A stretch of 64,000 bases of DNA from Halosegnis longus (GTDB lineage: Archaea > Halobacteriota > Halobacteria > Halobacteriales > Haloarculaceae). The notes under the pieces were generated by a model. That model saw only the letters and a program-made list of their open reading frames with translations. It was not told the DNA's origin and ran no database searches. Both the position numbers and the translations under genes were made by a program. The stretch is from the NCBI RefSeq assembly GCF_009663395.1, contig NZ_QKNW01000001.1, forward strand, positions 992,001 through 1,056,000, read 5' to 3'. The stretch's first letter is position 1. Every line of letters begins with the position of its first letter. Shown piece after piece: positions 16,866 through 33,647 of this stretch.

Positions 16866-17285
16866 CTACGTTTCGGTGGTCGTCTCGTCGAGTTCCTTGT
16901 CGCCGACGTAGATGGCCGCGCCGTCCTGGACGACCTTCTCGGCGAGCACGGCACACTTGATGCGCATCGGCGAGATCTCGACGCCGAGCATCTCGACGAT
17001 GTCGTCGCGGTCCATCTCCCGGACGGCGTCGAGGGTCATCCCCTGTAGCTCCGTCGAGAGGAGACTCGCGGACGCCTGTGAGATGGCACAGCCGTCGCCG
17101 ATGAAGGAGACGCCGGCGATGGTCTCGTCGTCGTCTTCGAGGTTCACGAACAGCTTGATGGTGTCGCCACACATCGGATTCTCGCCGACGTGTTCGAACG
17201 TCGCGTCGTCTACCTCGCCGTAGTTGCGTGGATTCTTGTAGTGGTCAAGAATCTGCTGGCGATACATATCGGAGCCAGTTCCCAT
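16866..17285 (-). CDS. sufU: Fe-S cluster assembly protein SufU (IscU/NifU-like)
   Basis: A 139-residue IscU-fold protein of SufU type. The three Cys are C39 (PMCGD), C66 (GDGCAISQAS) and C111 (RIKCAVL), with Asp41 between. SufU binds zinc and takes sulfur from the SufS Cys. SufS is encoded about 1.8 kb away on the same strand, with one oppositely oriented gene between them. ATG 17285 gives the longer form; an ATG at 17267 (MYRQQI) is equally plausible by homologue N-termini. Confidence 0.92.
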   Translation of the reverse strand: MGTGSDMYRQQILDHYKNPRNYGEVDDATFEHVGENPMCGDTIKLFVNLEDDDETIAGVSFIGDGCAISQASASLLSTELQGMTLDAVREMDRDDIVEMLGVEISPMRIKCAVLAEKVVQDGAAIYVGDKELDETTTET

Positions 17286-17345
17286 GATACCATTTATTCG
17301 GGAATCACGGCCAAAAGGGTTGTCCTGCGCCAGAACTGTCAGAAA

Positions 17346-17356
17346 GATACAAATAC
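17346..17356 (+). promoter_or_regulatory. TATA element for the exported LVIVD-type protein
   Basis: GATACAAATAC is 23-33 bases before the ATG at 17379. The spacing fits a leaderless transcript and supports that start over the in-frame ATG at 17394. Confidence 0.55.
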
Positions 17357-17378
17357 CGCGAGAGACAGTGACGGGTGT

Positions 17379-18869
17379 ATGACACGCCCTTCCATGACGC
17401 GCCGGACGGTGCTGTCGGCGCTCGGCGTCGCAGCGGCGGCCGGTGTCACCGGCGTCGGTGCCGCGACGGCGACACGACAGCAGGCGCTCGAACCGACACA
17501 CACCGTCGAGGTGCCGGGAACACAGGAAGTCACCGTCGCCGACGACGAGGTCCACGCGTTCGTCGCCGCCGGTGACGGGCTCGTCGTCGTCGACACCGAC
17601 GCCGGCGAGGTGGTCGCCCGCCGGCGCGAACTGCTCGCCGACCGCGAGAACGGTCCCGTCTCCAGTTACGCCGACTGCGTGTACGACGACGGAATGCTCG
17701 CGCTCGTCGGTCGCATCAACGGGCCGGCCGACGCGCTCAACGGGATCGTCGTCTTCGACGTGAGCGACCCGACGAATCCGACCCAACAGCGGTTCATCGC
17801 GACGAACCACGGCATCCACAACGCCGCGATGTCGGGGACGACGGTGTACGCGACGGCCGCCGGCATCGCGCCCGACTCGCCGATTATCGCCTACGACGCC
17901 ACCAACGGCGACGAGCTCGGCCGGTGGTCGGTGCTCGATGCCGGCGACGGCTGGAGCGACGTGTGGCAGTATTACCGAATCAGCCACGACATCTACGCCG
18001 ACGGCGACACCCTGTACACCTCACAGTGGGACGCCGGGACGTGGCGTATCGACGCCAGCGACCCCGCGTCGATGACGGCCGAGGCGAAGATCGGCGGGCT
18101 CTCCCAGTCGGAGTTGGCCGAACGCGAGACGGGCAACACGACCCAGTACATCGAGATGCCGGCGAACCACCACGTCGCCGCCCCGCATCCCGAGCGCCCG
18201 CTCGTGGCCGTCGGACACGAGGCGTTCGACTCCCCGGAGACCGAGACCAGCGGTGCTCCGGCCGGTATCACCGTCTGGGACATCTCCGACATGGAGAATC
18301 CACGCCAGGTGCAGTCGCTCGCGCCGCCGGTGCTCGAGGACAACCGACGCTCCACCGCCCACAACATCCGCTGGCGGGGCGACCGGCTCTACACCTCGTT
18401 CTACTACGGGGGCGCGAAGGTGTACGACCTCTCGGACGTGACCGACCCGCAGGTCGTCGGCGAGTACCAGCAGCCGAACGAGGCGCAGTTCTGGGCGGCC
18501 GTCCCGAACGAGGGGGGCTTCGTCGCCTCCTCGATGGGTGGCCAGACCAGCGACGGGGAGTCGTTCCCGGCACAGCTGTACGTGTTCCCGGAGCCGTCGG
18601 GCGAGGAGACCGCGCCCGCCGAGATCGGTGCCTGGCCCGGCCAGTCGAACGCGACGGTGAATCAGGTGTCGACGCCGACGCCGACACCCACCCCGACACC
18701 GACGCCGACGCCGGAGCCGACGGCCACTCCGACGGCGACGGAGACCGCGACAGCGACCGAGTCGGCGACGGAGACGAGCGGGAGCCAGCCCGGCTTCGGC
18801 GTGCTCGCGGCGCTGGCCGGCGGTGTCGTCGGAGCCTCGCGGCTCCTGCGCGGTGAGGAAAGCGAGTAA
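17379..18869 (+). CDS. Exported beta-propeller protein with LVIVD-like repeats and PGF-CTERM anchor
   Basis: 496 residues. The N-terminus carries a Tat signal (TRRTVLSALGVAAAAGVTGVGA). The body has repeated strand motifs such as VVFDVSDPTNP, ITVWDISDMENP and VYDLSDVTDP, typical of LVIVD/propeller repeats. Then comes a Thr-Pro linker and a C-terminal PGFGVLAALAGGVVG helix with a basic tail, the PGF-CTERM signal processed by archaeosortase A. It is therefore predicted to be displayed on the cell surface. Ligand or function unknown. It lies between sufU and sufS, both on the opposite strand. Confidence 0.88.
   Translation: MTRPSMTRRTVLSALGVAAAAGVTGVGAATATRQQALEPTHTVEVPGTQEVTVADDEVHAFVAAGDGLVVVDTDAGEVVARRRELLADRENGPVSSYADCVYDDGMLALVGRINGPADALNGIVVFDVSDPTNPTQQRFIATNHGIHNAAMSGTTVYATAAGIAPDSPIIAYDATNGDELGRWSVLDAGDGWSDVWQYYRISHDIYADGDTLYTSQWDAGTWRIDASDPASMTAEAKIGGLSQSELAERETGNTTQYIEMPANHHVAAPHPERPLVAVGHEAFDSPETETSGAPAGITVWDISDMENPRQVQSLAPPVLEDNRRSTAHNIRWRGDRLYTSFYYGGAKVYDLSDVTDPQVVGEYQQPNEAQFWAAVPNEGGFVASSMGGQTSDGESFPAQLYVFPEPSGEETAPAEIGAWPGQSNATVNQVSTPTPTPTPTPTPTPEPTATPTATETATATESATETSGSQPGFGVLAALAGGVVGASRLLRGEESE
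18669..18728 (+). repeat. Thr-Pro coding tandem repeat
   Basis: Degenerate hexamer repeats (ACGCCG/ACACCC) encode a (TP)n linker before the PGF-CTERM anchor. This is an in-frame low-complexity stalk, usually O-glycosylated in haloarchaeal surface proteins, and not a mobile or CRISPR repeat. Confidence 0.85.
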
Positions 18870-18924
18870 GGAAAACACCGCGGCGCTACGCAGACGCCAC
18901 ACCTCAACGACGGCTGTTCAGTCA

Positions 18925-18959
18925 CCGGCGCGAACGAAGTGAGCGCCGGCTGCGTTTTT
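18925..18959 (+). terminator. Hairpin plus T-run after the exported-protein gene
   Basis: CCGGCGC (18925-18931) pairs with GCGCCGG (18943-18949) across an 11-base loop, followed by TTTTT at 18955-18959. It lies 55 bases past the stop at 18869 and looks like an intrinsic terminator on the plus strand. Its 3' arm overlaps the next potential hairpin (18948-18977), so alternative foldings are possible. Confidence 0.5.
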
Positions 18960-19049
18960 CATGAACGTTTTGCAGCCGAGTGGATTGCCGGCTACGCCGG
19001 CAATCTATTCCGTGGCGGCGGAGCCGCCACGCGGTGCGCTTCGCGCACC
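18925..19049. repeat. Array of five inverted repeats in a convergent intergenic region
   Basis: Five hairpins follow one another. They are 18925-18949 (7 bp arms), 18948-18977 (GGCTGC/GCAGCC), 18983-19005 (GATTGCCGGC/GCCGGCAATC, 3-base loop), 19011-19031 (9 bp arms, GGA loop) and 19033-19049 (GGTGCGC/GCGCACC, TTC loop). They fill the 198-base space between the exported-protein gene and sufS, whose 3' ends face each other. This could be a bidirectional terminator, an mRNA stabiliser or a structured RNA. Confidence 0.75.
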
Positions 19050-19067
19050 CGAGGCTGGAAAAGGTTC

Positions 19068-20306
19068 TCAGGCGAAGATCTGGCGCGCCTCGTCGACGGC
19101 CTCGACGAGCGCGTCGACCTCCTCGCGGGTGTTGTACAGATAGAAGGACGCGCGAGCGGAGGCGCTGGCTCCGAGCACGTCGTGGAGCGGCTGGGTGCAG
19201 TGGTCGCCGGCGCGAATCGCGACGCCGTAGTCGTTGACGATGGACGCGAGGTCGTGGGCGTGGACGCCGTCGATGTTGAACGCGACGAGCGGACTGCGCT
19301 CGTCGGGACCGGGCCCGTAGATTTCCACGTCGTCGTACTCGGAGAGCTGCTCGTAGGCGTACGCCGCCAGGTCGGTCGAGTGGTCGTGGATGCGGTCGAT
19401 ACCCACGTCCTGAACGTACTCGACGGCCTCGGCGAACGCAATCCCCTCCGAGATGGACGGGGTGCCGGCCTCGAACTTCCACGGCAGCTCGTTGAAGTCG
19501 GTGTCCTCGAACGTCACTTTGAGAATCATGTCGCCGCCGTAGAGATACGGCTCCATGGCGTCGAGAATCTCCTCTTTCCCGTAGAGTGCGCCGATACCGG
19601 TCGGACCGCACATCTTGTGAGCGGAGAAGGCGAAGAAGTCACAGTCGAGTTCCTGCACGTCGACGGCCATGTGCGGGGCCGACTGCGCGCCGTCGACGAA
19701 GATGTAGGAATCGTGGTCGTGGGCGATGTCGGCGAGCGTCGAGACGGGGTTGACGGTGCCGAGCGTGTTGGAGGCGTGGACGACACTCACCATCTTGGTG
19801 TCGTCGGTGATGAGCTCGCGGGCGGCGTCCATATCCAGGTTGCCGTCGTCGGTGATGGGGATGTAGCGACACTCGGCACCGGTCTTCTTCGCGATCTGTT
19901 GCCAGGTGACGAGCGAGGCGTGGTGTTCCATCTCCGTAAGAACGACCTCGTCGCCGGGACCGAGTTCGTTGAGTCCCCACGCGTAGGCGACGAGGTTCAT
20001 CGCTTCCGTCGTGTTCTTCGTGAAGACGATCTCCTCGCGGCCGGCCGCGCCGATGAAGTCGGCGACGGTGTCGTGGGCCTCCTCGTAGGCGATGGAGGCC
20101 TCCTGACTCAGGTTGTGGATGCCGCGGTGGACGTTGGCGTTGTACTCGTAGTAGTAGTCGGTGATGGACTCGACGACGCGTTCGGGCGTCTGTGAGGTGG
20201 CGGCGTTGTCGAGATACACGAGCGGCGTGCCGTCGAACTCGCGGTCCAAGATTGGAAACTCCTCGCGGCGGGCGCTCACGTCGAGTGGCGCGGAGTGGAC
20301 TCCCAT
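19068..20306 (-). CDS. sufS: Cysteine desulfurase SufS (group II)
   Basis: A 412-residue PLP enzyme that removes sulfur from cysteine. PLP Lys231 is in FSAHKMCGPTG, the cofactor Asp/Gln are in FVDGAQSAPH, and the active-site Cys is in RAGDHCTQPLH near 365 within the short loop typical of group II. It pairs with SufU, encoded on the same strand at 16866-17285. ATG 20306 is preferred over a frame extending to 20336. Confidence 0.94.
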   Translation of the reverse strand: MGVHSAPLDVSARREEFPILDREFDGTPLVYLDNAATSQTPERVVESITDYYYEYNANVHRGIHNLSQEASIAYEEAHDTVADFIGAAGREEIVFTKNTTEAMNLVAYAWGLNELGPGDEVVLTEMEHHASLVTWQQIAKKTGAECRYIPITDDGNLDMDAARELITDDTKMVSVVHASNTLGTVNPVSTLADIAHDHDSYIFVDGAQSAPHMAVDVQELDCDFFAFSAHKMCGPTGIGALYGKEEILDAMEPYLYGGDMILKVTFEDTDFNELPWKFEAGTPSISEGIAFAEAVEYVQDVGIDRIHDHSTDLAAYAYEQLSEYDDVEIYGPGPDERSPLVAFNIDGVHAHDLASIVNDYGVAIRAGDHCTQPLHDVLGASASARASFYLYNTREEVDALVEAVDEARQIFA

Positions 20307-20355
20307 TACTACATGAAGGGTACGAGACCGTAACACTCCTTCGGTCGCGGGGGTC

Positions 20356-33467: not shown

Positions 33468-33647
33468 ACAGTTCGTTCGTAGGCTCGGGCCATACCGCTT
33501 GTGGCTACGGTTTCGACGCCCTTTTGCCCGCGAGCGGAGAAGGCGAGACAAGCACATCGGTTCGGCGGGCTTCCGATGGGCACCTGCTACGGCAGGCCGG
33601 AATGTGACACGACGGACGTGTTGAACCACGAACGCCCGCGGAAAACT

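Follow-up and report, generated by a model that had tools for sequence, protein, structure and literature searches.

A covarying nested palindrome with T-runs on both strands, dispersed at haloarchaeal gene ends

Introduction

What is known of transcription termination in archaea concerns mainly U-tracts and the factor aCPSF1, and conserved structured signals are little evidenced. Among the closest described systems are the T5C sites of Haloferax volcanii, for one of which about 95% termination was obtained in a reporter (Berkemer et al. 2020, PMC7237163); aCPSF1 works with the U-tract (PMC8716108). Three other systems bear comparison with the locus described here: the bidirectional intrinsic terminators of bacteria, the bacterial REP/REPIN families (as defined in PMC3733652), and the miniature inverted-repeat elements (MITEs) of haloarchaea.

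We analyzed the gap between sufS and a convergent ORF for an exported protein within a window of 64,000 nucleotides of Halosegnis longus DNA. The gap contains a folded element with T-runs on both strands that recurs at gene ends in this genome and in most sampled genomes of its order. No description of it was found in the open-access literature, either by topic or by sequence string, and it is apparently undescribed so far.

Results

Anatomy of the element between sufS and the exported-protein ORF

The convergent gap (18870-19067) spans 198 bases, from the end of the exported-protein ORF at 18869 on the plus strand to the sufS stop on the minus strand, in agreement with the originally stated length and convergent arrangement. 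Orthologs of sufS occur in 6 of the 6 genomes of the genus, and the stop region of the exported-protein ORF is conserved in G002, the closest relative, as well. Three hairpins with 3-base loops and perfect arms of 10, 9, and 7 bases had been predicted in the gap, and all three proved exact (18983-19005, 19011-19031, and 19033-19049). In dinucleotide shuffles of the gap, hairpins with 3-base loops and arms of at least 7 bases averaged 0.04, and the observed number was reached in 0 of 2000 shuffles. The two with arms of at least 9 bases are the only hairpins of that arm length and loop in the whole window, and no second cluster of this kind was found elsewhere within the 64 kb. The gap folds with an energy of -105.4 kcal/mol on the plus strand (z -6.1) and with a z of -4.5 on the minus strand.

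The contents of the gap are one folded element and not five independent units. What had been described as a tandem array of five equivalent hairpins is instead a nested element with an inserted two-hairpin module (Table 1). The "second" hairpin of that array (18947-18978) does not, in our reading, stand as a unit of its own, the sequence TTTTTCATGAACGTTTT at 18955-18971 being the distal arm of the larger palindrome. Read on the sufS strand, the stop codon TGA is followed by GAAC-c-TTTT-c-CAGCC, then by the three hairpins (19049-19033, 19031-19011, and 19005-18983), and after these by GGCTG-c-AAAA-c-GTTC-ATG-AAAAA and a GC hairpin (18949-18925). In the fold, the three hairpins are enclosed by an outer stem in which 18963-18966 pairs with 19064-19067 and 18973-18977 with 19053-19057. 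The outer arms pair across a C.C mismatch beside the T/A tract, within which the inner T-tract (18968-18971) is paired with the sufS-side T-tract as T4/A4. The inner CAGCC/GGCTG helix has changes on both sides across copies at 4 of its 4 pairs, and the second A-tract is conserved (alignment A1). Our covariance model (R1) matched positions 18955-19068 on the minus strand with 45.2 bits (E 3e-7).

Table 1 Features of the element and of its neighbors in the window.
Feature	Position	Strand	Basis or remark
Exported-protein ORF, convergent with sufS, start codon unassigned	17190..18869	+	ORF
Distal hairpin CCGGCGC-GAACGAAGTGA-GCGCCGG	18925..18949	+	7-bp arms; upstream of the convergent gene's T5C
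Element core, from sufS-stop arm to distal A-tract	18955..19067	-	covariance model and homologs
Distal T5C tract (TTTTTC), predicted termination site of the exported-protein mRNA	18955..18959	+	sequence
Outer stem, distal arm GTTC (minus strand)	18963..18966	-	fold, covariation
Inner T-tract for the convergent (+) direction	18968..18971	+	sequence, alignment A1
Inner stem arm CAGCC, partner GGCTG 19053-19057	18973..18977	+	fold
Accessory module, CGTGGCGGC hairpin and GATTGCCGGC hairpin	18983..19032	-	insertion relative to the G002 sufS element
Core hairpin GGTGCGC-NNN-GCGCACC	19033..19049	-	inside the conserved TCGG...RCTC frame
U-tract (UUUUC on sufS mRNA), predicted sufS termination site	19059..19062	-	5 nt past the stop
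Outer stem, stop-proximal arm GAAC (minus strand)	19064..19067	-	fold, covariation
sufS (cysteine desulfurase)	19068..20336	-	ORF; stop codon 19068-19070 abuts the element

The first hairpin of the proposed array, said to be followed by a T-run, is present as such: the 7-bp hairpin at 18925-18949 is succeeded by TTTTT at 18955-18959, and a similar hairpin lies at the same place in most copies of the element. This hairpin and its T-run are predicted to serve the convergent exported-protein gene. The hairpin's motif GCGAACGAAGTGAGC, which is very common in haloarchaea and not specific, occurs in this genome in only 3 exact copies. Many copies of the element (L009, L037, L040, L241, and others) have a further conserved AGCATCCG-hairpin-CGGTTCACCGG stretch ahead of the distal hairpin and the T5C, which is degenerate in the window copy.

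A BLAST search of the genome identified further copies, each of which begins directly past a stop codon. The plan shared with other haloarchaea consists of the stop, NNN-C(C)-T5, a GC stem, the CTCGGGTGCG hairpin, and RCTC, and then of a GC stem, A5, about 8 bases that hold the complement of NNN, and A5.

An accessory module shared with a MITE

The two longest hairpins (18983-19031) belong to an accessory module of about 50 nt. It is absent from the sufS element of G002 and is therefore a separate gain or loss; another G002 element (L037) contains it, and the counterpart of that element in this genome is without it. The sequence CGTGGCGGCNNNGCCGCCACG occurred in 33 of 243 genomes (control, 0). 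The GATTGCCGGC hairpin, with which a search had been proposed, was followed and turned out to belong to this optional module and not to the core.

Module alignments also placed the module in MITE-like elements of other genera. In G175 (L119-L132), the two-hairpin module of the window element is carried by a hairpin-rich MITE of about 700 bp, which is built around the CGTGGCGGC hairpin and present in about 15 copies; its terminal repeats are GGYGGTGTTCAGATAAG / CTTATCTGAACACYGCC, and its target duplications are 8 bp long (GGCAGGCC and CATAGAAC, for example). A TnpB guide RNA was considered as the second home of the module and set aside, the G175 copies having MITE ends and 8-bp duplications instead. 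At three further loci (L097, L099, and L118), from at least two genera, the CGTGGCGGC palindrome and the GGAGGCCGG hairpin that follows it occupy one conserved position, in what looks like coding sequence, tentatively that of a P-type ATPase.

Distribution in Halobacteriales

The core-hairpin pattern CTCGGGTGCGCNNNGCGCACC was found in 54 of 392 genomes of the order Halobacteriales, and the reversed pattern, which has the same composition and is also a hairpin, in 0 of the 392. Carriers of the exact pattern include Haloarcula, Halomarina, Halorientalis, Halolamina, Halobellus, Halegenticoccus, Halobacterium, and Natronolimnohabitans, with matches on plasmids of Natrinema and others too. Bacterial matches in the exact-pattern scan were treated as chance, the pattern being short. 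Viral contigs with the core-hairpin pattern did not match the model, and the phages searched gave no match worth noting.

A covariance model built from 37 copies, with a match threshold of E <= 0.01, detected the element in 99 of the 117 Halobacteriales genomes sampled. This genome has at least 14 copies, and others have up to at least 35, scoring having been limited to 45 candidates per genome. Among 69 genomes from the rest of the phylum, 6 had one match each (E 0.0024-0.0056), which is marginal and close to chance given rough E-values. The suggestion that the array might be an element with a copy number in this genome was thus borne out. The original prediction had also named uniqueness and lack of conservation as grounds for giving up a functional reading, and the searches of the genome and of the order found neither.

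Searches of Rfam at gathering and permissive thresholds returned nothing for the region; the best chance match reached 18.7 bits, where the gathering score is 50, and no match was better than E 0.2. Elsewhere in the window, positions 33583-33632 are an eL15-Euryarchaeota ribosomal protein leader (RF03144, 44.5 bits).

Position at gene ends

Genes were called around 61 copies, of which this genome supplied 14, G080 20, and other genomes 27, with a home-made heuristic caller based on codon usage. A gene ends upstream on the sense strand in 53 of the 61, and in 43 of these 53 the T-run starts 2-10 nt past the stop. Thirty copies lie between convergent genes, 23 between co-directional genes, and 8 at the end of the opposite gene, with none between divergent genes; among other adjacent gene pairs at the same loci, 26 of 88 are divergent and 9 of 88 convergent. 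Some copies directly follow genes for tRNA-Lys, tRNA-Ser, or tRNA-Leu. Many of the sense genes, as recognized by sequence, are housekeeping genes (SecY, thermosome, PAN, SdhA, glutamine synthetase, and PorB). Among annotated plasmid copies, 2 of 6 lie between divergent genes, in long gene-poor gaps, according to a gene table that is incomplete. The sense-strand T-run is followed by C in 52 of 72 copies. This location at gene 3' ends, with T-runs on both strands, supports the two-way terminator that had been among the predicted functions.

Gain, loss, and exchange at orthologous sites

At sufS, the gap to the convergent neighbor is only 7-9 bases in G003 and G004 and holds no element. The G002 site (L061 / L160) has a one-hairpin element, a perfect palindrome with 26-bp arms and a 3-base loop; the three-hairpin form belongs to this genome, and a further variant is found in G001 and G005. 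Because most haloarchaeal orthologs lack the element, including 2 of the 6 sufS orthologs, it is not essential. Among 69 orthologs of PorB (ending LVREFY), 24 have a T-run at most 16 nt from the stop and about 45 have none; about 17 of the 69, as judged by eye, have both arms, each with its own matching pair, and G118 has no element. The identical PorB proteins of G030 and G010 are followed by elements that differ in their inner parts and in their arms, which match in each, before an identical distal block. Copies are slightly more alike within a genome than between two genomes (permutation, 11/2000). Whole elements are also duplicated in tandem: perfect repeats that take in a gene end, the element, and its distal hairpins were seen at L241, L242, L335, and L243 (in L241:1383-1992, 3.3 copies of a 186-bp unit), and similar repeats of about 182 and 139 bases occur elsewhere. 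Most likely, the element is a cassette that is able to spread or to be swapped and to take up further hairpin modules.

All of this, namely the patchiness at sufS and PorB, the likeness within genomes, the exchange of variants in G030 and G010, the tandem duplications, and the presence of the accessory module in a MITE that has terminal inverted repeats and duplicates 8 bp of its target, would also be expected of a selfish or passively mobile REP/MITE-like palindromic repeat, whose insertion at gene ends is harmless and for which termination is incidental. We nevertheless consider a repeat of this kind unlikely. No target duplication was seen at the core, which has no fixed terminal repeat and no known transposase partner, and its end arms are specific to the locus yet complementary, which is not a product of simple insertion. 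Moreover, the distance from stop to element is the same across distant lineages, and none of the 61 copies sits between divergent genes.

Covariation of the stem

In the alignment of 37 copies, 11 of 20 base pairs have changes on both sides, and the covariation score of 0.262 compares with 0.052 +/- 0.009 for shuffled controls and a maximum of 0.064 for slid ones. With 77 copies, in an alignment that is fitted to the model, the score was 0.407 versus 0.092. The outer arms vary between copies and match only their own partner: they are complementary in 30 of 37 distinct arm pairs, compared with 9.7 +/- 2.2 (maximum 19) in 3000 arm shuffles, and they had played no part in choosing the copies for this count. 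The T/A-tract mismatch is retained as a rule, the flanking bases being pairable in only 11 of the 37 arm pairs, and the T-tract, the A-tracts, and a CTCGGGT frame are nearly invariant in the consensus of the 37 copies.

G-U pairs make up about 15 of some 1360 paired cells in the 77-copy alignment. Selection on a single RNA strand would ordinarily admit more of them; few are expected in a stem that is used on both strands or in a DNA palindrome. That the arms covary almost without G-U pairs therefore suggests that the outer stem is constrained on both strands, or as DNA. The covariation would mean that the stem matters, or else that palindrome correction continually remakes it.

The same observations bear on two further explanations. 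The element could be a structured RNA of the 3' UTR (a stabilizer or a processing or protein-binding site) that is formed from read-through transcripts and is not a terminator. Strong covariation of all helices would agree with this, as would the very low folding energy and an internal loop whose TCGG...RCTC frame and mismatch beside the T/A tract are conserved; the near-absence of G-U pairs, however, misfits a function on one RNA strand only, the U-tract precedes the structure on the sufS strand, and Rfam provides no counterpart, so that we judge such an RNA to be improbable. Palindrome correction by template switching in replication, with complementarity arising from mutation and not selection, would account for concerted changes in both arms and for the lack of G-U pairs, and the perfect 26-bp palindrome at the G002 sufS site, apparently the window copy (G000) freed of all its mismatches, is a candidate case of it, but the T/A-tract mismatch kept in most copies and lineages and the near-invariance of the tracts and frame make it very improbable as the source of the element.

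Discussion

Its anatomy, its place at gene ends, and its covariation lead us to infer that the element is probably a compact two-way archaeal U-tract terminator built on a dispersed palindrome. Each strand would present RNA polymerase with a short U-tract and then C, the element supplying one U-tract in the sufS direction and one or two in the opposite direction. In the sufS direction, UUUUC at 5 nt past the stop would trigger termination; in the direction of the convergent gene, UUUUUC about 85 nt past its stop would do so. The palindrome, comprising the outer stem, the T/A stem, the GC stem, and the hairpin, may let the site work from both sides. RNA that reads through in either direction would adopt the fold of a long, stable hairpin and in this form might act as a fail-safe stop, as a block at the 3' end, or as a barrier between converging polymerases.

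Against this terminator reading speak the sufS-side tract with its only four Ts, the many orthologous sites that lack the element, and the 2 of 6 plasmid copies between divergent genes. Further, if transcription ended at the first U-tract, the covarying stem would never be transcribed, so a terminator alone leaves the stem unexplained. A bolder and more tentative proposal is that the element belongs to a haloarchaeal "inside-out" class of two-way terminators, in which the double-strand-constrained stem is itself needed and the cassette has spread between gene ends. If so, the stem would be needed, for example, as a fail-safe stop or as a collision barrier for converging archaeal RNA polymerases.

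A covarying gene-end element in most haloarchaeal genomes would provide a ready set of natural terminators for study, among other hosts in the genetically tractable Haloferax and Haloarcula. It allows one to ask whether structure matters in archaeal termination and how convergent genes avoid collision, and it could be used to mark 3' ends in annotation and as a compact two-way terminator part.

Among known systems, the element resembles haloarchaeal MITEs in its accessory two-hairpin module, which is also carried by the MITE with the terminal inverted repeat GGYGGTGTTCAGATAAG. Unlike MITEs, its core is without fixed terminal inverted repeats, the outer arms matching their own partner only, and no target duplication was seen at sufS, where the empty G003 and G004 sites are too diverged to align. 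With bacterial REP, REPIN, and BIME sequences it shares a short palindromic form, dispersal outside genes and at their ends, and a copy number that varies. It differs from REP/REPIN in that neither GTAG nor CGTC occurs in the consensus of 37 copies and in having at least 14 copies here and up to at least 35 elsewhere, compared with usually more than 100 per genome; its locus-specific outer arms and the lack of a known partner transposase set it apart from all three.

Like the bidirectional intrinsic terminators of bacteria (A-run, stem-loop, T-run), the element is one palindrome with T-runs for both strands. In contrast to them, it is built inside out: its T-run precedes the inner stem-loop on each strand, and the hairpin is thus unable to drive release at that T-run. 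The bacterial order of a GC hairpin followed by a U-run is found only at 18925-18949 and its T5 on the plus strand; on the sufS strand the order is reversed. The element also resembles the T5C terminators of Haloferax volcanii (PMC7237163), in which a T-run followed by C lies in intergenic DNA just past a gene. A T-run of about five bases and then C is found here on both strands (TTTTTC at 18955-18959, plus; TTTTC at 19062-19059, minus) and is the likely active signal. Whereas the Haloferax sites are single T-runs on one strand, the element has T-runs on both strands, built into a palindrome that is conserved, covaries, and is present repeatedly in the genome.
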